From contig JABIBQ010000073.1 of the NCBI GenBank assembly GCA_018652685.1, positions 62,001 to 126,000 on the forward strand: a stretch of 64,000 nucleotides of DNA. The letters run 5' to 3'. Origin of the DNA: Candidatus Bathyarchaeota archaeon. Its GTDB lineage: Archaea > Thermoproteota > Bathyarchaeia > TCS64. Shown piece after piece: positions 14,285 through 59,968 of this stretch. Made by a program: the position numbers and the translations under genes. The notes under the pieces are model-generated. The model was not told where the DNA came from. It searched no databases and saw nothing but the letters and a program-made list of their open reading frames with translations. Positions within the stretch are counted from its first letter, which is position 1. Each line of letters opens with the position of its first letter.

Positions 14285-16639
14285 TTACTTGAAGTAGTAC
14301 ATGATGTCGTCGATTACCGTACCGAGTTCGGCTGCGTAGTCGTCCACTTCCGCAATTAGGTAACCACCGGCCTTCATGTGCTGGAACAAGATCTCAAGAC
14401 CACCGGCATCATCCGCGTTGATCAGGTCTGTCCTGTGACATCCACCACAAGCTCTTGTAGCGGGTCCAGTGAGGTAGATCGGATAGTCTCCGATATCTCT
14501 ATCATCAACGGAGTCAGTTGCAGACAAGGCGCCTGGTAGCGACTTTGACTGATCTGGCACCTCGTAGGTCCCCTCGTTGTGGCATGCTTCACAATCCTTG
14601 ATTGTGAACAGTGGCATCGTGTGCGCAACGTGGGTTTCGTACCTAGTAGCCTCAACAGCGTCGGTGAAATCAACATCGCCGATATCATACGCCTGGAATG
14701 AGTGTATCGCATGTACGTAAGAGTCGATTGACCTCGACTGCAGCTCCAAGTGGGAACCGCGGCTCTTCGTAATGTGACACATCCTACAGACGACAATACT
14801 TCCGCCTCTATCAGGTCCGTGGAAAGTTATACCAAGTGCCTCGTGGCACGTGTTACATCCCTCAACATCGGTTATAGGGTCGTAATAGTCGACGAACTCA
14901 GCTGTAGCTAAGTCATAGGTCTTTGAGACAGCGTTGATAGCTAGCTCGACATCGTCAGCATCCACGAGTTCACCCATTACAGCGACCTCGATCCTGCTAA
15001 CAGTACCGTCATCGATCAGGTTACCCCATGTGGACATATCGACAGTAACTTCCCAGCTACCATCTGCTGCCGAAACGGTGGCACCACGTGGGTGATCATC
15101 GTCACCTACGCCGTATTCCAGTGCACGGTCATCGCCGCTGCTCCTGGAAATCTCACCATCGCCGTTGTCGTCAACAAGCCTCTCGTGTGGACCAATGATG
15201 TAGTCTTTCGTGTCCCAGCCGTACATTCCAACCATCACAGTAGGCTCGATGTCCGCGACATCGATAGCTGCCAAGGAAGATGTTGCACTGAACTTCACGG
15301 TAACTACGTCATCAGAGACAGAAGTCTCATCAATTGTGATTACAACTGCATCAGCGTACTTCACGCCATCAGCGGTGTAAACCTGCTTATCATATCCGGA
15401 GTGGATCTCGCTGAACACTGGGAATCCGCCCGCTGCGCTGTGGCAGCTTGCACAATTCACTGTGTCCAAGTTCATTCCATCGTGAACCGCGGGTAGTACT
15501 GTCGCCAGTGCGTATTCTGCCGTATCGTACTCCTCTGAGCCGGTAACCGCGTGACAGCTCTTGCATGTCTCAATAGTGAAGTAATCATCCGTTAAGATCA
15601 TATCGAGCTTACCCTCGTGGCAGGTTACACAGTTAGACATTGACTGCGGGTATGGGAACTCCATAGCGTGCGTAATGTGAGTGTCCTGCATGACAGTCGC
15701 CATATACGAATACTGGATTTCCTCCTCCTCCGTCAAGTCATCGCCAGCATGAAGCTCAGTATACCTTACAGGATCGTTTGGGATAACCAACCAGTCCTGG
15801 TGGCCGCCCTTGCGGTCATCGTAGTGGCATACCTTGCATGATGCAAAGTCGGATAACCCTTCAACTTCAGCCTGCCTATAACCGTGCTTTCCGTATGGTT
15901 CACCGTGGCATTTCTCACAACCAGAGACAACGGCTACGGACTCGTATTCATCAGCAGCACCATAGGAGATGCCTGCACTGGCAACGTCAGCGTACAGATG
16001 TACGTGACTTCCACCGGCCTCAACGTCAAGTGGACCTTGCGCGATATATGCATAAGCAATAGCGTCAGAAGTCTCAATGTCGTATGTTACGCCAGAAGCG
16101 GTTATAGTGTATTGACCGCCTCCAATCGCTGCGACAGTTGAGTACCTAACGTAGCCAGATGGAACGTAGTCTTCATCACGTCCATCCCACATGCCGGTCG
16201 CGCTATCATATGCCATGGCATAGAATCTCGCCTGGTCAAGATCTGATAGGTCATCCTCAACATAAGCTGCACCATCCTTCATGATGGTGACCGTCATAAC
16301 GGAGGTAGTACCAGTTGTTGAAACGCTATCAATGGTAATCGCAAGATTGCTCTCGTCGTTGTAGTCATCGTAGTCAGCCTGATGGTCAGCACCGGCTCCT
16401 TCGTGGCACACTACACAAGTCTCTGCCTCCGCAACTTGAGTATATGACTCACCTTGCGCTCCAGCAGGACCAACTGCACCATCAGAGCCATCGGCACCAT
16501 CAGGTCCAGCTACTCCCTGAGGCCCCTCAGGACCCGTGAGTCCCGCTGGTGCCTCAGTTGTGTATGTTATTCCAATAGCTAGTACTGCGATAACGAGCGC
16601 AATAATAGCTATGTACATTGACTGTTTTTCGTTTATCAT
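14285..16639 (-). CDS. OmcA/MtrC-type decaheme c-type cytochrome with N-terminal collagen-like repeat
   Basis: 784 aa with exactly ten CXXCH motifs (CVVCH, CEKCH, CKVCH, CVTCH, CKSCH, CASCH, CNTCH, CRMCH, CEACH, CGGCH); N-terminal hydrophobic segment then GLTGPEGPQGVAGPDGADGSDGAVGPAGAQG. Confidence 0.92.
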   Translation of the reverse strand: MINEKQSMYIAIIALVIAVLAIGITYTTEAPAGLTGPEGPQGVAGPDGADGSDGAVGPAGAQGESYTQVAEAETCVVCHEGAGADHQADYDDYNDESNLAITIDSVSTTGTTSVMTVTIMKDGAAYVEDDLSDLDQARFYAMAYDSATGMWDGRDEDYVPSGYVRYSTVAAIGGGQYTITASGVTYDIETSDAIAYAYIAQGPLDVEAGGSHVHLYADVASAGISYGAADEYESVAVVSGCEKCHGEPYGKHGYRQAEVEGLSDFASCKVCHYDDRKGGHQDWLVIPNDPVRYTELHAGDDLTEEEEIQYSYMATVMQDTHITHAMEFPYPQSMSNCVTCHEGKLDMILTDDYFTIETCKSCHAVTGSEEYDTAEYALATVLPAVHDGMNLDTVNCASCHSAAGGFPVFSEIHSGYDKQVYTADGVKYADAVVITIDETSVSDDVVTVKFSATSSLAAIDVADIEPTVMVGMYGWDTKDYIIGPHERLVDDNGDGEISRSSGDDRALEYGVGDDDHPRGATVSAADGSWEVTVDMSTWGNLIDDGTVSRIEVAVMGELVDADDVELAINAVSKTYDLATAEFVDYYDPITDVEGCNTCHEALGITFHGPDRGGSIVVCRMCHITKSRGSHLELQSRSIDSYVHAIHSFQAYDIGDVDFTDAVEATRYETHVAHTMPLFTIKDCEACHNEGTYEVPDQSKSLPGALSATDSVDDRDIGDYPIYLTGPATRACGGCHRTDLINADDAGGLEILFQHMKAGGYLIAEVDDYAAELGTVIDDIMYYFK

Positions 16640-36046: not shown

Positions 36047-37330
36047 CTACTTAATTTGGGCAACATGAACGCTACAGGAGATACATGGATCATAGGCTCT
36101 CACCATGATCTCGAGTGCATGTTTCACCTCGTCCACCGGTTTGTCAGCCAGATTACCTGCTATGACCCTTGTGTCCTTCTCGATGTTGTAGGCATTTTGG
36201 GCGGTTGGGGTTATGATGTTTGACTTTGTTATCCGTCCCTCACCGTCAAAAGTGTAGTCGTGGTAAAGAAGACCTCTTGGAGCTTCAACCGCGTTGATGC
36301 CTCTGGACTCGAAAACCTCGAAATCAACCAAGCCCTCGTTTTCCAGACCGGAGTCTATCAATGAGTCTATTACCTTTACGCTGTGTTCAACATCGTGTAC
36401 GAGTTCGATGGCTTGTGCTAGATTGTTGCTGATGGTATTCCTGAAATCCAGAAGCCCTCCGTGTTCATTGTACAGTTCGGCGGCTGTTCCTTTGAGTTTC
36501 CCGTGGTTGAAGTATAATCTCGGTAAAGCTCCAACCATGAAAGGCCTGTCTTTGTAGGACGAGAACTTGGCGTACGAATGGCGATTAACCGACTCGTTTG
36601 TCAAGCTCTCATATTCTTTCTCTGGGATTCGCTCATTATCAGAAGTGAGGATATGGTCACCCAGATAGCCGAACTCGGCGCCTGAGTCCAACGCGAGAAG
36701 CACGTTGTCGGAAACGTTGTAATCCGGAAGAGTGAAACCGCTTAGAAGATTTACGGCAAGAACTGTAGTGGGCTGCACTTTCAATAGCTGTTCCTTGATC
36801 TCAAGTAGAGCATCCTCGGATGGAACTTTGGAGAAGCCCCCAACGCGCTCGTTCATTCCGTGCACATCTCTACCACTCAGTGCAGTATGGATCATGTTCC
36901 CAGTTTTCTTGAGATCAAGAGCAGCCTCGACGGCGTCAAGATGCGCTGTGCTCATGTGGATAGCGTCTGGAAACCCTAGGAAATCCGGCAACGCCAACAT
37001 GAAAACGTGTAACGCATGGCTTTCTATCGTCTCTCCGTGGATTAGTAGGTCTCTTAGCCTGTGAGTCTGTGGTGTTGAGTCCACCTTAAACGCGTTTTCG
37101 ATGGCTCCTATACTTGCCAAGCTATGACTGGCAGTGCAAATAGCGCAAATCCGTCTGGTAACATCAGGTACTTTATCGTACTGCATAGTCTTGATGAGAT
37201 GCTCGAAGAACCGTGGACCTTCAAAGATGTTGAACTTGACGTCCTTCACCTTATTACCCTCCAGTATTACCTCGATTCCACCGTGGCCTTCGACCCGTGT
37301 AAGTTCGTCTATTGTTATGGTTTTACTCAT
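36047..37330 (-). CDS. [NiFe] hydrogenase large (alpha) subunit, group 3b-like
   Basis: 427 aa; N-terminal RICAICTASHS and C-terminal DPCISCSVH nickel ligands, with a 5-residue extension VAQIK. Confidence 0.95.
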   Translation of the reverse strand: MSKTITIDELTRVEGHGGIEVILEGNKVKDVKFNIFEGPRFFEHLIKTMQYDKVPDVTRRICAICTASHSLASIGAIENAFKVDSTPQTHRLRDLLIHGETIESHALHVFMLALPDFLGFPDAIHMSTAHLDAVEAALDLKKTGNMIHTALSGRDVHGMNERVGGFSKVPSEDALLEIKEQLLKVQPTTVLAVNLLSGFTLPDYNVSDNVLLALDSGAEFGYLGDHILTSDNERIPEKEYESLTNESVNRHSYAKFSSYKDRPFMVGALPRLYFNHGKLKGTAAELYNEHGGLLDFRNTISNNLAQAIELVHDVEHSVKVIDSLIDSGLENEGLVDFEVFESRGINAVEAPRGLLYHDYTFDGEGRITKSNIITPTAQNAYNIEKDTRVIAGNLADKPVDEVKHALEIMVRAYDPCISCSVHVAQIK

Positions 37331-38096
37331 TGTTGTTACCTCCTAAGAACCCAGCCGCAAGCTCGCCGCTGAAGACCCTCAGCCTGTTCATGATATCCAC
37401 TTCGGTATATCCCAAGTCGAGTAACATCTTGTACTCGGCAGCAAAAGTTTCTGATCCCTCAACGGTTCCCCGACATCCTATGCAGTCAAGACCTAGGGAT
37501 GGACATCTCGCGTTACATCCTGCTTTTATGATTGGTCCAAGGCAGGGCTTTGACTCTTCTGTGATCAAGCAAGGATACTCGTTGATCTTGCACTCTACAC
37601 AGACCGGGTAGGTATACCTCTGTGGGAGGTCTCCGTGTAGCAGAGATGAGACTGCCTTGAGTACCTCAGTCTTCTCGACAGGGCACCCTGGTATCTGGAG
37701 GTCTACCGTGACATACTCTCTGATTGGTTTTGAGGGTAGCGCATCGAAGAAACCTGGCTCCACTCCATAGACATCCTGCAGTTTCTCAGCCAATGTCGTC
37801 TGGTCATTCCTCATGGACTGTATGCATCCGTCGATGGCACAGTTACCGAAAGCTATGATGACCTTGGACCTCTCTCTGATCTCTTTCAGCTTCTTGAGGT
37901 CATGTTCTGTTGACACTGTCCCCTCAACGAAGGCTATGTCCACTTCTCCCGGCTCCTTGTAGCTGCTTCCCTCTTGGAAATCAACTATCACAAACCTGCT
38001 GACAAGATCAAGTAACTCGTCCTCCATGTTGAGTATCTGTAACTGATCTCCCGCACATCCTGTCAGGCTGAAAATCCCTAGTCTTGGTTTGCTCAT
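37323..38096 (-). CDS. [NiFe] hydrogenase small (delta) subunit
   Basis: 257 aa; GIFSLTGCAGDQLQ, FGNCAIDGCIQ, IPGCPVEK, Cys-rich FeS segment. Confidence 0.93.
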   Translation of the reverse strand: MSKPRLGIFSLTGCAGDQLQILNMEDELLDLVSRFVIVDFQEGSSYKEPGEVDIAFVEGTVSTEHDLKKLKEIRERSKVIIAFGNCAIDGCIQSMRNDQTTLAEKLQDVYGVEPGFFDALPSKPIREYVTVDLQIPGCPVEKTEVLKAVSSLLHGDLPQRYTYPVCVECKINEYPCLITEESKPCLGPIIKAGCNARCPSLGLDCIGCRGTVEGSETFAAEYKMLLDLGYTEVDIMNRLRVFSGELAAGFLGGNNNE

Positions 38097-38097
38097 C

Positions 38098-38982
38098 TTA
38101 GATCATCCCCTTCGTGTTTATTGCATCCCACTGTGTGAACACCGGTCCGTCCTTGCACACATACTTGATTGATTTCCCGGTGCCGACAAGGCAGTGGCCG
38201 CATTGGCCTACTCCACATCGCATCCGACGCTCAAGGGTCATGAATATCTGTTCTGGAGGGACTCCCAGCTTATCAAGTTCCATGGCCGTAAACCGGTACA
38301 TGATTGGAGGTCCTCCGAGTATGGCCACGGTATTTGCGTCCTGAGGGTCTAGTAACCCGAATAGCTTGGTGACCAGTCCGTGGATACATCTATCGTTCAT
38401 ATCTTGTTGTAGTCCCATAAACACCTTATCGGTCTCGTCCTCGTAGCTTAGGTAGGTCTTGACATCATAACTATCACCGTGTTTGAAATGTTCAAGTATC
38501 TCGTCTCGATATAGCATTAGATCATAGTTCCTGACACCGTAGAGGAGACAGATCTTCCCAAACCTCTCCCTGTTGTTGAGGGCATATTGAAGCACACCAC
38601 GAATGGGTGCCACCCCTAGACCACCTGCAACAAGTAAGAGATCCTTTCCCACGAAATCCTCCATCGGGAAACCGTTTCCGTATGGACCTCTAACCCAGAC
38701 ACTGTCACCCACTTCAAGTTTGTGGATAGCGTTGGTTACCCTACCTGCATTTCGGATACAAAGCTCAAGACCTGTTTTTTCAGTCTGAGCCGTGCATATC
38801 GAGATGGGGGCCTCTCCAACGCCCATGACACCGAGTTTGATGAACTGCCCCGGCATGTATTTAAATTTCGTCTGGTCCGTGGGGTCCTGAAAATTGATGG
38901 TCACGAACTTTTCGATATCAGTCATTTTCTGGATCTCTGTGATCTTGGCCTTCACAGGCATTAGCGGGTTGATCTTTATCAT
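38098..38982 (-). CDS. FAD/NAD(P)-binding hydrogenase gamma subunit (HydG-like)
   Basis: 294 aa; RGPYGNGFPMEDFVGKDLLLVAGGLGVAPIRG; C-terminal CGVGQCGHCLVG [2Fe-2S] motif. Confidence 0.92.
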   Translation of the reverse strand: MIKINPLMPVKAKITEIQKMTDIEKFVTINFQDPTDQTKFKYMPGQFIKLGVMGVGEAPISICTAQTEKTGLELCIRNAGRVTNAIHKLEVGDSVWVRGPYGNGFPMEDFVGKDLLLVAGGLGVAPIRGVLQYALNNRERFGKICLLYGVRNYDLMLYRDEILEHFKHGDSYDVKTYLSYEDETDKVFMGLQQDMNDRCIHGLVTKLFGLLDPQDANTVAILGGPPIMYRFTAMELDKLGVPPEQIFMTLERRMRCGVGQCGHCLVGTGKSIKYVCKDGPVFTQWDAINTKGMI

Positions 38983-40004
38983 TGGGACTCACCTCTAATC
39001 TTACTCATTATTTCAAGGAAATCAATATCAGCTGGGCAGTAAACGGAGCATCTTCCACAACCGACGCAGTTGGGCATGTCCTCTCTCAAGCTTCCCTTAC
39101 AATTGAAACGGTTTCTAATCCGCTCATACGCACTAGGCCTGAAGTTGTGACCACCTGCAACAAGACCGTGGTCCTGTAACATACAACTGTACCAACGCCT
39201 AACCCTCTCCCCTGTGGTGAGATTGAGGTCAATGTTGTCCTGAACATCATAGCACCTGCATCGGGGGCAAACCATGTTACATGATCCGCATCCCAAACAT
39301 CGGTCACCATACTCTTTCCAGATTTGGCTATCATAGGACAGGTCAAGCATGTCCTGGAGACCAGCCATCTCAATGGACTTTTTGAAAGAGTTCATTCTCT
39401 CGTTTTCTACCGCCTTGAATTGGTCGAGGTCATTATCACCCAGTTCAGTGAACAGATCTGGGTTTTCGCTGATTATTCGGAGACCCTTTGGAGAACCTAC
39501 TCTAACGAGATATTTTTCGCCGATATCGTGGAGGAAGAGCTCAAACCCTTCTGATGCGAAGCTTGTCCCGGTTGACTTGCAGAAGCAGAAATCATCTGGA
39601 CTGCAGCTAATACCCACAATGAGAGTTCTATCTCTCCTTGACGAGTATAGGGTATCAGTGAACTCCTCAAGGAACACCTTTGCTAATAGATTCAGTGCAT
39701 GAAGATCACAGGGATGGACACCGAACATAACGAGTTTTTCCGAGGATTCCTCAGGTTCTATGTATATCTCCTTCTTTTTGTCGAACGTGAAAATGGTTTC
39801 CTCGGGAGCAATAAACATTTTTTTCGGCGAGATCATGGTTCGGTTGTAATTCAGTTCAACCTTTTCCATTGAATCCACTTTCTGGAAGGAATGGTTTTTC
39901 TCACCATGTTTGACGGGAGCAAAAACAGAACCATGATTCTTCAAAATGTCGAAGAATCTAGGCAGTTTGTCTTTTCCTAGCACCTTGAGTAATAGAGCGG
40001 TCAA
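38979..40004 (-). CDS. 4Fe-4S hydrogenase beta subunit (HydB-like)
   Basis: 341 aa from TTG; CLGCGSCNMVCPRCRC and CVGCGRCSVYCPADIDF. Confidence 0.92.
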   Translation of the reverse strand: MTALLLKVLGKDKLPRFFDILKNHGSVFAPVKHGEKNHSFQKVDSMEKVELNYNRTMISPKKMFIAPEETIFTFDKKKEIYIEPEESSEKLVMFGVHPCDLHALNLLAKVFLEEFTDTLYSSRRDRTLIVGISCSPDDFCFCKSTGTSFASEGFELFLHDIGEKYLVRVGSPKGLRIISENPDLFTELGDNDLDQFKAVENERMNSFKKSIEMAGLQDMLDLSYDSQIWKEYGDRCLGCGSCNMVCPRCRCYDVQDNIDLNLTTGERVRRWYSCMLQDHGLVAGGHNFRPSAYERIRNRFNCKGSLREDMPNCVGCGRCSVYCPADIDFLEIMSKIRGESQ

Positions 40005-51384: not shown

Positions 51385-51696
51385 TTCGTGTTCAGAGTAT
51401 GGGGTTCGTTATTAACCTTATTCGAAGATGAATACATCTTTGTCTCCCATATAATGGCATTGTCTCATGTTATAGTGACATTGTGTTTCTTTTTTAATCT
51501 ATGAAAAATGTCTTGACATAATACCAACTCTTATTAATTTACTTAAAATATACTCCAACCAATTGGTAATTCATTATCTAGAACAAATTTAATCTAAAAA
51601 ATATTCAAACGGATTTAATAGAAATAGTATTCCAAACATTATTAACTTTAAAACACCCATTTATTCTTCATATATTACCGCTCAGAGACGACAATA

Positions 51697-53583
51697 ATGA
51701 CAGGTGAACGCCCGCTTAGAATACTCCACGTAGATGATGAGGAAACCCAACTGGAGTTAACCAAGCTGTTCCTTGAGCAAATTGACAAAGACCTCATGGT
51801 AAGATCAATTCATTCCCCAGAAGAAGCCTTGAGGTTGCAAAAGGAGAATGCCTTCGACTGTATTATTAGCGATTACAAGATGCTGAGCATGAACGGCGTC
51901 GAGCTCGCCGAGAAACTTCGTGAGAATAGTAACATCCCGTTCATTCTGTACACGGGTCAGGGAAGCGAGGAGGTAGCCGAGAAAGCGTTCAATGCCGGAA
52001 TAGACGACTACCTCCGAAAAGAGGGAGAGCCAACACATTTCCAGGTACTTGCCAAGAGGATCAGGGACACGGTGGAGAAGCACCGCACGGATGAACTGTA
52101 CAAGAAAGTGGTCGAGGAGAGCAGGGACGCCATCGTCATTCTGAAGGATAACAAGATACAATTCCTGAACAAATCAGCCAGCAGGCTAATCGGCTTTGAT
52201 AAGATGGAAAGCGGCGTCGGGAGAGACATCCGGGAGTACTTCATTGATATCGAAGACCAGTTTAACCCGCCAGCGGATGGCTCAAGCTACGTCTTTGGGA
52301 TAGATTTCAGGACAGATAATGGAACCATGAGGGGAGGAGAGGTCACCCTGAGCAAGACCACCTACCAAGGTGAGGAAGCGCACCTCGTCTTCATTAGAGA
52401 CATTACCGAGAAAAAGAGAAACGCGGAACGCCTTGATGCCATATACCAGCAGGCGATGCGGCTTAGCTCGGCAGTAACCATCCAGGAGGTATCTGAAAAG
52501 ACTCTGGACATCATGGAAACCGTCTTTGAGTATCAGACAATAACATTCCACATAGTCGAGGGCTCACAGTTAAAGACCCTGGGAATTAGAGGAGCCCAGT
52601 ATATGGACCTCACCATGCCCATCCTCGGGAAAGGTATAACCACGAAGGCTGTTAGGGAAGCGAAGAGCATTCTCGTCCCTGACACATCAAAGACTCCGGA
52701 GTTCATCAGGGGGCCAACTGATGCAAAATCGGAGCTGGCAGTGCCCGCCGTGCTCAACGGGGAAACAGTGGCCGTGCTAAACGTTGAGAGTCTGAAGCTA
52801 AACGACTTCACAGAGGACGACAGGAAGCTCCTAGAAACGCTCGCATATCACGTCGCGTTCACGTTCAACAGGATAAAACGGAATGACGAGGATGCGATAG
52901 AGGAGGAGGAAAAACGCAGGAATCTCAACTACGCCCTGGGCCGTCTGGACCACGCTGAGAAGGTGACCACCATGGTCAAAGGTGAGCTGCAGAAAAACAT
53001 CCTCAGCATCATCAACGCCAGCCTGTTGATCCGCAACCAGCCCGAGTTGATCCCACAGATAGCGGACAGTATCGACGCAAACGCCGAGGTCTCACTACAA
53101 GTCGCTGAGAAGATACGCGAAACGGTTTCAAGCAACTCACTAGGGGATGCTTTCATCGAGGTCAACCAGCTCATGAGGAAGGTCCTTGACGAGACCTTCC
53201 TGCCTAGAAACGTCAGGGTAAAGACTCAGTACGACGAGGCACTATTGATAGTGGAGATTGACGAGACCAGCTTCACCAGGATACTCAGGAACCTTCTGAA
53301 CAATGCCATAGAGGCCATGCCGGGAGGGGGAACCCTATCGATGAAGGTCACATCTCAATATGACATGGCCATCGAGGTGAGGGACACGGGCATGGGAATA
53401 CAGGATAGAGCCTTGAACAAGCTTTTCCAGCCGTTCAACACCACGAAACAGGGGCACAGTGGTCTAGGGTTGGCGTTCTGCAAGAATACCATAGAGACCA
53501 ACGGCGGCTCGCTGGAGATGAGCGAGACAAGCGCAAAGGGCACCACATTTGTCCTGAAGCTACCGCTGAGAAGAAAATTATAG
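51697..53583 (+). CDS. Hybrid signal-transduction protein: REC-PAS-GAF-HATPase_c
   Basis: 628 aa; REC (CIISDYKM, LYTGQG, YLRKEG), PAS, GAF, and ATPase boxes LRNLLNNAIEAMP, VRDTGMGI, GHSGLGLAFC. Confidence 0.9.
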   Translation: MTGERPLRILHVDDEETQLELTKLFLEQIDKDLMVRSIHSPEEALRLQKENAFDCIISDYKMLSMNGVELAEKLRENSNIPFILYTGQGSEEVAEKAFNAGIDDYLRKEGEPTHFQVLAKRIRDTVEKHRTDELYKKVVEESRDAIVILKDNKIQFLNKSASRLIGFDKMESGVGRDIREYFIDIEDQFNPPADGSSYVFGIDFRTDNGTMRGGEVTLSKTTYQGEEAHLVFIRDITEKKRNAERLDAIYQQAMRLSSAVTIQEVSEKTLDIMETVFEYQTITFHIVEGSQLKTLGIRGAQYMDLTMPILGKGITTKAVREAKSILVPDTSKTPEFIRGPTDAKSELAVPAVLNGETVAVLNVESLKLNDFTEDDRKLLETLAYHVAFTFNRIKRNDEDAIEEEEKRRNLNYALGRLDHAEKVTTMVKGELQKNILSIINASLLIRNQPELIPQIADSIDANAEVSLQVAEKIRETVSSNSLGDAFIEVNQLMRKVLDETFLPRNVRVKTQYDEALLIVEIDETSFTRILRNLLNNAIEAMPGGGTLSMKVTSQYDMAIEVRDTGMGIQDRALNKLFQPFNTTKQGHSGLGLAFCKNTIETNGGSLEMSETSAKGTTFVLKLPLRRKL

Positions 53584-53600
53584 AATATCCCTATTCTCTG

Positions 53601-54128
53601 TTAGATTTTTGAGTCCTTGGATAATACTCTTGGTTCCCATTCATCCCTCAAGATGCTGTACATCGAGCCGTCGTTGAACTTGCCCTGCGAGAAGAACACC
53701 ATGCGCCTTACACCTTCAAATGTGAACCCCACCTTCTCAAGGATCCTGATAGATGGCGTGTTCTCCGGGTTTGTCTCGGCTTGGACCCTGACGATGTTCC
53801 TTGACAGGAACAGATAATCCACCATGATCTCCAAGGCCTCGGTGCAGTAGCCCTTCCCCCTTGAATCTGGGTGGACGATGTAGCCGATGAATTGGTGGGT
53901 CGAGTCTGGTCCCGTTATAACCTGCCCCACGGGGTTCCCGTCTTTGTCCTCTATGACCCACCACGAGTTACTGTTCTCCTGGCTGAACCATTTCTCGATT
54001 GCATCTCTGCCTGATACATCCATGGGCTCGTACGGACCCGTGTAACAGGGATCGTTGTTCCACTCGGTGAACCAGTTAAGGTCACGTGACTCTAAGGGCC
54101 GGACGTTGACCTTCTTTCCCTTCAGCAT
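53601..54128 (-). CDS. GNAT family N-acetyltransferase
   Basis: 175 aa; HQFIGYIVHPDSRGKGYCTEALEIMVDYLF, NPENTPSIRILEKVGFTFEG. Confidence 0.9.
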   Translation of the reverse strand: MLKGKKVNVRPLESRDLNWFTEWNNDPCYTGPYEPMDVSGRDAIEKWFSQENSNSWWVIEDKDGNPVGQVITGPDSTHQFIGYIVHPDSRGKGYCTEALEIMVDYLFLSRNIVRVQAETNPENTPSIRILEKVGFTFEGVRRMVFFSQGKFNDGSMYSILRDEWEPRVLSKDSKI

Positions 54129-58325: not shown

Positions 58326-59968
58326 CTATGAGGAGTTGCCTGAGGCCATCGATATCCTACGGGATAAAGTCGCCTCCAGCTCCTGGAGCCTCTCCTCAGA
58401 TAACTGGTTGAAGAGCGGCCTTGGCTTGGTGAGCTTGCGACCGATGTTCACTGCCCTCAGTGCTTCGTCCAAGCTGTAGCTGTTGCCGTCAAGTCCCAGC
58501 TGCCTATAGACCTCGTATGCATGGAACGGGAACACGGGCTCCCCAAGTATGGCTATCGCCCTACTGAGCCACAAGGCGTTGTGGATGACATCTCTCGCCT
58601 CGTCTGGGTCAGTCTCCTTAAGCTTCCACGGCTCCCTCTCCTGGAGATATTTGTTGCCAGTTATGGCGAGCCCCAGCAGGGTGTCGCAGATCTTCTTGAA
58701 CTCATAGTTTTGGACGTACACTCTGATGTCCTCGATGGCCTTCTTAACTGCTCCTTCTATCTCGGGCTCGATGAAACCCGAGGGTACCTTACCATAGTTC
58801 CTGTACGCGAAGAGGAGGCTCCTGTATATGAAGTTCCCCAGAATGCCCACGAGTTCCTTGTTGAGCTTGGCCGCGTAGGTTTTCCAGCTAAAGTCAAGGT
58901 CTCTTGTGTGACCCGTGTAGCTAGCAATGTAATAACGGAGCGAGTCAGCGTCCAGACCCTCCTCAAGGTACTCGTCCTCGACCCAGAGTACATAGCCCCT
59001 GCCTTGCTGAAGTTATGGCCCTCCACTTTTACCATTCCACTGGCGACAACTGCGTCGGGGACGCTGTAACCTGCCCCCTTGAGCATACTGGGCCAAAAGA
59101 GGCAGTGGTGGTAGACTATGTCCCCTCCAATGAAGTGGATTAGCCTGCCTGGTCCCTTCCAGTAGTGCTCCCAGTCGCCTCCCGTTCGTTCTGCCCACTC
59201 CTCCGTGCTACCGATGTAGCCGATTGGGGCATCGAACCAGACATAGAATGTCAGGTCCTTTGAGCCGGGGAACGGGATCCCCCAATCAAGGTTTCTAGTG
59301 ATATTCCAGTCTTTTAGGCCTCCCTTGAGCCATCCCTTGGCGTAGTTCCTAGCATTCTCTGTCCCTCCAAGTCTCTCAAGGAACTCTTTGAGGAAGCTCT
59401 CAAAGGCAGTTAGCTTCAGGAATTGATGCGATGTCTCCTTGTACTCAGCCGTAGTTCCACATATAGTGCATCTGGGGTTCAATATCTCCCCAGGCTCTAG
59501 GTACACGCCGCATCCTTGGTCGCATTCGTCGCCACGGGCATCCGTCCCGCAGTGGGGACAGGTTCCCTCCATGTATCTATCGGGGAGGAAACGATCGCAT
59601 GATGGACAATGGGGTAACGTCACGTCCTTCTGGTAGATGTAGCCGTTCTCGATGAGGTTCATGGCTATCGCCCTGGTCCTGTGATGGTTCACGGGGTCAT
59701 TAGTGCTTCCGTAGTTATCGAAGAATATTCCCAGCCTGGGGAATATTTGTCTGAAATGTTCATGATACTGTTTGGCTATCCGCTCCGGTGTTGTGCCCTG
59801 CTCCTCGGCCTTCACCGTTATCGGTGTGCCGTGTGTGTCGCTCCCACAGAAGAATAATACGTCCCTCCCCAGCTTGCGCTGGTACCTGACATAGATGTCT
59901 GCGGGGAAGTACGTTCGGAGATGGGCGATATGCATGGGACCATTGACGTATGGTAGCCCGCATGTCAC
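58326..59968 (-). CDS. metG: Methionyl-tRNA synthetase, split by a -1 frameshift near 59003
   Basis: ORF 58757..59968 has [17 protein letters not shown] and Zn-knuckle cysteines. The MetRS frame continues in 58326..58850 after restoring one nt in VEGHNFSK[S][17 protein letters not shown]. Confidence 0.9.

Follow-up and report, generated by a model that had tools for sequence, protein, structure and literature searches.

Anoxic sediments harbour few archaea as abundant as the Bathyarchaeia, which have been described as fermenters or acetogens. The locus described here raises the question of what a decaheme cytochrome akin to bacterial OmcA and MtrC might be doing in such an organism. In 19 Bathyarchaeia genomes, a 2022 study did not find multiheme complexes that would serve extracellular electron transfer (PMC9534799); a 2025 review does not mention multihemes, the only cytochromes it names being cytochrome c oxidases in one genus (PMC12694404), and, according to a further report, archaea do not possess MtrCAB (PMC8805035). 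In ANME archaea, multihemes fused to S-layer domains are proposed to handle electron transfer at the cell surface (PMC9012536). We propose, with a probability of roughly two in three, that the decaheme is the outermost cytochrome of a porin-free extracellular electron transfer chain, matured by a Ccm system and fed by an NrfD module.

The window analysed here comprises 64,000 nucleotides, corresponding to bases 62001-126000 of a 149 kb contig (C33) in a draft genome of 2.38 Mb that is estimated to be 94.9% complete and 8.7% contaminated. The gene lies mid-contig, at window positions 14285..16639 on the minus strand, as an intact reading frame with an ATG start that encodes 784 amino acids plus a stop. 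Exactly ten CXXCH motifs, the number given by an earlier, sequence-only reading, are found at residues 75, 241, 268, 337, 359, 396, 595, 618, 683 and 731, while 10,000 shuffles of the protein gave a mean of 0.02 motifs and a maximum of 3. All 20 cysteines sit in these motifs, leaving none spare, and 13 non-motif histidines are invariant in an alignment of seven relatives, which is enough for ten distal ligands.

The layout of the protein, all of it encoded on the minus strand, departs in one respect from the earlier description. A hydrophobic N-terminal helix, predicted to be a membrane anchor (about residues 7-26; 16562..16621) and modelled as a helix by AF2, is followed by a collagen-like stalk of 11 Gly-X-Y triplets (residues 33-65; 16445..16543); both had been recognised before. 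The first heme motif (residues 75-79; 16403..16417) lies N-terminal to beta domain I (residues 98-232; 15944..16348), which was delimited by the AF2 model and domain comparison. Motifs and alignments then place hemes 2-6 in heme domain II (15410..15943), followed by beta domain III (residues 425-588; 14876..15367) and by heme domain IV with hemes 7-10 (14288..14875). The hemes are thus not arranged in two groups of five, as had been stated, but in the order of one heme, a beta domain, five hemes, a second beta domain and four hemes (1-beta-5-beta-4). This order is kept in relatives with a complete N-terminus, the exception being the Myxo_G1051 row, which has 8 motifs and looks like a frame problem.

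Is this protein a member of the OmcA/MtrC family? The family model TIGR03507 matches residues 213-739 with 135.3 bits (E 2.4e-39), under its curated cut-off of 209.3 bits, and orthologs from a second genome of the genus (G002) and from Planctomycetota score similarly (125 and 127 bits). The PF22113 model for domains II/IV of MtrC and MtrF is matched over two stretches, the best covering residues 591-756, with 95.4 bits against a cut-off of 30. A phmmer search of PDB sequences with the decaheme gave no match at E 0.01, and a profile built from seven sequences found MtrF as its sole match there (E 1.5e-5). AF2 models were of low confidence, both for the whole protein (seven sequences; mean pLDDT 47.6, heme domains mostly under 50) and for the C-terminal half (mean pLDDT 51.3), in which beta domain III is the best-predicted part and the heme part is weak. 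When the weak whole model was compared with the PDB by Foldseek, the first nine matches were nonetheless MtrC, UndA, MtrF and OmcA (E 2.8e-7 to 1.4e-3), the next match having an E of 0.08, and MtrC, OmcA and UndA again ranked first for the C-terminal half alone; TM-scores to structures of the family, computed from these low-confidence models, were 0.2-0.35. Against a viral structure library the model had no match under 0.02.

An alignment of the N- and C-terminal halves shows them to be internal repeats (HHalign probability 97.5%, E 5e-12), with heme 1 pairing with heme 6. In comparison with a classical decaheme, hemes 2-10 pair with classical hemes 1-9, so the last, C-terminal heme is missing and an extra one lies ahead of beta domain I. 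The four-domain order of the OmcA/MtrC family is beta-5 hemes-beta-5 hemes; a CX8-15C disulfide in domain III is conserved across all outer-membrane clades and, in the proteins from Shewanella, governs the binding of flavin (PMC4486940). As the archaeal protein has no spare cysteine, this disulfide cannot form. The earlier assignment to the OmcA/MtrC type therefore stands as far as homology to MtrC, OmcA, MtrF and UndA is concerned, given the ten CXXCH motifs, the PF22113 match and the Foldseek ranking, but not as strict family membership. Because it scores below the TIGR03507 cut-off, has a shifted heme register and lacks the domain III disulfide, we place the decaheme, on its sequence, in a register-shifted sibling subfamily of OmcA/MtrC, one that it shares with Phycisphaerae, Nitrospirota and Myxococcota and that very probably works like OmcA/MtrC.

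Within the window the gene is flanked, without partner genes, by a PatB-like lyase and a gene of the fumarylacetoacetate hydrolase family, and the reading frames read there include no cytochrome maturation genes, in agreement with the earlier statement. Elsewhere the window contains a four-gene [NiFe] sulfhydrogenase-like operon (36047-40004, minus strand), all below curated equivalog cut-offs, and a methionyl-tRNA synthetase gene split over two frames (58326-59968, minus strand), a frameshift that is perhaps an assembly or sequencing indel. A search of the whole genome located the maturation genes on another contig, C47, which carries an ABC ATPase, a CcmB-like gene, CcmE, CcmC, CcmF and a TatC-like gene. 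CcmC, CcmF and CcmE exceed their Pfam cut-offs; the ABC ATPase and the CcmB-like gene adjoin them and were assigned by position and sequence only. Next to this cluster are genes for an 11-heme protein (11 CXXCH) with a C-terminal helix, an FeS protein (Fer4_11, 75 bits) and NrfD (PF03916, 123 bits), together with a UbiA prenyltransferase, which lies below the MenA cut-offs and is a mere hint of a quinone pathway. The contig also has a complex I-like operon (NuoD, NuoH) and replication factor C-like genes. A split-Soret cytochrome c-like protein with two CXXCH is encoded beside the complex I-like genes (L029:2543-3343, minus strand), and G002 has a similar one near ccm and hydrogenase-like genes (L075:12577-13389). 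A second undecaheme-FeS-NrfD set with the same gene order is found on contig C62. The tetranucleotide profile of this contig (L031) correlates with that of the window at 0.53, where most of the other contigs read reach about 0.9, a divergence that reflects either a recent acquisition, a short-contig effect or a binning error.

It is in related genomes that these genes come together. In G003, a stretch of 13 kb contains ccmB, ccmA, ccmC, ccmF, a 12-heme protein, the decaheme itself, the undecaheme, the FeS protein and NrfD; in G010 and G016 a stalked gene directly follows ccmA-ccmB, and in G006 the decaheme comes after NuoM/NuoN-like genes. CcmF was detected in 18 of 257 genomes of the class, half of which (9) belong to the window's family. 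Of all the evidence that the decaheme and the NrfD module are parts of one respiratory chain, this gene order weighs most, and the sequence-only reading had understated the genomic support for its own interpretation. The 12-heme protein, which has an N-terminal helix, adjoins the decaheme or undecaheme cluster in G003 (L053:5761-6669) and G024 (L076:18271-18972, a copy with 11 motifs and a cut start) and is possibly an extra quinol-side or shuttle cytochrome.

In the chain that we envisage, the decaheme would be extracytoplasmic, with its uncleaved N-terminal helix anchoring it in the single archaeal membrane and the short Gly-X-Y stalk keeping it away from that membrane. A complex I-like dehydrogenase would reduce membrane quinone, the undecaheme-FeS-NrfD module would oxidise the quinol and hand electrons to surface multihemes, and the decaheme, its hemes presumably attached by the genome's own Ccm genes, would relay them to an extracellular acceptor such as a mineral, a humic substance or a partner cell. 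A porin would be unnecessary, since there is no outer membrane. The surface electron-transfer role proposed earlier is retained as the best inference from homology and gene order, on which all functional steps rest; from the same evidence we infer the membrane topology, the heme loading, the direction of electron flow, the acceptor and the contact with the NrfD module.

With this anatomy and these partner genes, the protein could equally pass electrons outwards to a syntrophic bacterium by direct interspecies electron transfer, as opposed to reducing minerals or humic substances. Sequence cannot separate these two roles; no feature of it points to a partner cell, and we regard this specialised use as unlikely. 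Electrons might also flow inwards, from an outside donor (Fe(II) or a partner cell) through the surface cytochrome and the NrfD module to the quinone pool, given that NrfD-type complexes can reduce quinones, QrcABCD being a cytochrome c3:menaquinone oxidoreductase (PMC13059093). We consider this very unlikely: no sequence feature sets the direction, and the complex I-like operon on the same contig as the NrfD set fits reduction of quinone from the inside. More doubtful still is that the protein is no conduit at all but an enzyme, at the surface or in a pseudo-periplasm, that reduces a soluble nitrogen or sulfur compound. Multiheme cytochromes are often enzymes, and a Hao-like octaheme gene (PF13447) is present on contig C70 of the same genome; against this stand the kinship with the MtrC/OmcA conduits, the confinement of all cysteines to CXXCH motifs and a number of conserved histidines sufficient for bis-His ligation of every heme.

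The contig is native to the bathyarchaeon, as shown by a methylthiotransferase gene that lies 39 kb away from the decaheme gene and is 90% and 86% identical to those of two congeners, and by the ortholog that G002, a genome of the same genus, carries on a contig of 77,520 bases (positions 51654-54008). The archaeal context assumed earlier is thus borne out, contamination of the contig can be rejected, and a chimeric bacterial contig, which the sequence-only reading had itself named as a refutation, is not what we find, the longest exact DNA match of the gene to any relative being 23 bases, without a chimeric join. That the gene is bacterial, has nothing to do with the archaeon and came into the bin by mis-binning or a chimeric assembly is accordingly highly improbable, despite the contamination estimate of the bin, bacterial relatives that reach 54-56% identity and a tetranucleotide correlation in the decaheme region that is the lowest of 79 windows (0.315; median 0.726) and partly expected from composition, in view of the length of the contig, the central position of the gene, the same-contig gene shared with congeners, orthologs in four other genomes of the family (the closest 62% identical) and the shortness of the exact matches.

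Among the 257 genomes of the class searched, the decaheme is confined to the window's family. It is full-length in the window's genome (G000), G002, G003 and G024; G006 has nine hemes in one frame and the N-terminal part in another, and the copy in G010 is interrupted by a gap. The curated OmcA/MtrC model had a match in the window's genome only among 398 genomes of the phylum, a sample that lacked some genomes of the family. The nearest relatives of the decaheme occur among other bathyarchaea and Planctomycetota, and the same heme order is rare in the bacteria sampled, being found in 1 of 248 Phycisphaerae, 1 of 296 Nitrospirota and 7 of 284 Myxococcota genomes.

The history of the gene is not a simple one. 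In the whole-protein tree the window's copy groups with G006 (100/99), G002 with G024 (100/99) and G003 with Phycisphaerae (99/97), and a single clade of archaeal copies is rejected (p-AU 3e-58), a value that, in a mosaic protein, does not tell how many transfers took place. Domain I alone gives the same archaeal split (100/100): the version in the window and G006 groups with Myxococcota, Nitrospirota and one Phycisphaerae copy (G258b), and those of G002, G024, G010, G003 and the other Phycisphaerae are separate, with under 20% identity to the window. In the domain III tree, by contrast with these pairings, the window's copy groups with G002 (100/98), next to Phycisphaerae, and G006 groups with G024 (100/99); the heme-domain tree pairs the window with G006. 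At the DNA level, domain III of G002 is 80% identical to Phycisphaerae G258a and 60% to its archaeal cousin G024, and bacterial copies fall among archaeal ones in a part of the tree. These trees show the beta domains to be mosaic and to have been exchanged between archaea and Phycisphaerae. With no exact match longer than 23 bases, mixing during assembly is not the cause of this pattern, and a transfer of single origin is likewise rejected. The suggestion that the gene was perhaps acquired from bacteria therefore holds as to horizontal exchange with bacteria but not as to a single bacterial gift, since the archaeal genes fall into more than one clade and the protein is made of domains with different histories.

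The N-terminal module has a wider distribution than the decaheme. The stalk is matched by Pfam Collagen with 21.8 bits (E 1.7e-4), under the cut-off of 27.2, and such a short Gly-X-Y run may be a mere flexible linker; if it were a triple helix, its 33 residues would span roughly 9 nm, going by the collagen rise per residue. A helix and Gly-X-Y start also heads other multiheme cytochromes of the same archaeal family, namely an unrelated one with eight CXXCH (G001, L055:481-1710, minus strand) and stalked classical decahemes of beta-5-beta-5 order in G002 (L074:1145-3412) and G010 (L051:9026-11236); the start of the stalked gene in G016 is cut by the contig end. With a TIGR03507 score of 433.8 bits, the classical decaheme of G002 demonstrates that strict OmcA/MtrC members exist in Bathyarchaeia. 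That the collagen-like stalk is an archaeal novelty can be rejected, for Gly-X-Y runs are present in Shewanella MtrF and, with 5 to 33 triplets, in the Nitrospirota and Myxococcota relatives. What varies is the anchor, which, read from the sequences without a prediction tool, is a helix in archaea, a lipobox-like start in Nitrospirota and Myxococcota and a plain signal peptide in Phycisphaerae. In G005 (L063), G014 (L062) and G030 (L064), too, bathyarchaeal proteins combine a hydrophobic N-terminal helix and Gly-X-Y runs with unrelated C-terminal parts, and display on a helix plus stalk may be general in the class.

A bolder proposal, which we hold to be rather unlikely as a whole, is that the subfamily represents a second, hitherto undescribed decaheme conduit architecture. 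It would retain ten hemes in a register moved by one position, with heme 1 at the foot of the molecule beside the membrane stalk; the beta domains would be cassettes passed between Bathyarchaeia and Phycisphaerae, and the stalk would trimerise to give a 30-heme surface conduit replacing the porin in archaea with a single membrane.

To judge from the decaheme, some bathyarchaea may use extracellular acceptors for respiration, and the candidate chain would add a respiratory, possibly metal-reducing, lifestyle in one family to those described for Bathyarchaeia. MtrC/OmcA-type cytochromes do occur in archaea, although MtrCAB was reported absent there, and a conduit of the outer-membrane type can apparently be re-anchored in a cell that has no outer membrane. 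Furthermore, the mosaic beta domains make domain exchange between archaea and bacteria directly testable in this protein. Within a partial coverage of the literature, we found no paper describing the decaheme or pairing 'collagen-like' with 'multiheme cytochrome'.

Among known systems, the Shewanella proteins MtrC, MtrF, OmcA and UndA, which gave the top structural matches, are alike in alternating beta and multiheme domains and in having about ten CXXCH motifs, and MtrF shares a short Gly-X-Y run near its N-terminus (GSDGDDGSPGEPGKP). They differ in their beta-5-beta-5 order, as against 1-beta-5-beta-4, and the archaeal protein has a helix anchor where they are lipoproteins, no outer membrane and no CX8-15C disulfide. 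The stalked classical decahemes of G002 and G010 share the N-terminus and the genome family of the window's protein and differ in heme order. Conversely, the 1-5-4 decahemes of Phycisphaerae, Nitrospirota and Myxococcota (L012-L016, L034-L049) share its heme order, with 47-52% identity in the seven-way alignment and local identity of up to 56%; those of Nitrospirota and Myxococcota have Gly-X-Y runs like the archaeal protein but start with a lipobox-like cysteine, and those of Phycisphaerae differ in having a plain signal peptide and no stalk. The S-layer multihemes MHC-A/B of ANME archaea (PMC9012536) resemble it as a means of passing electrons out of an archaeal cell without an outer-membrane porin; they do so with S-layer domains and C-terminal anchors, whereas the decaheme has no such Pfam domain and would rely on its N-terminal helix and stalk.
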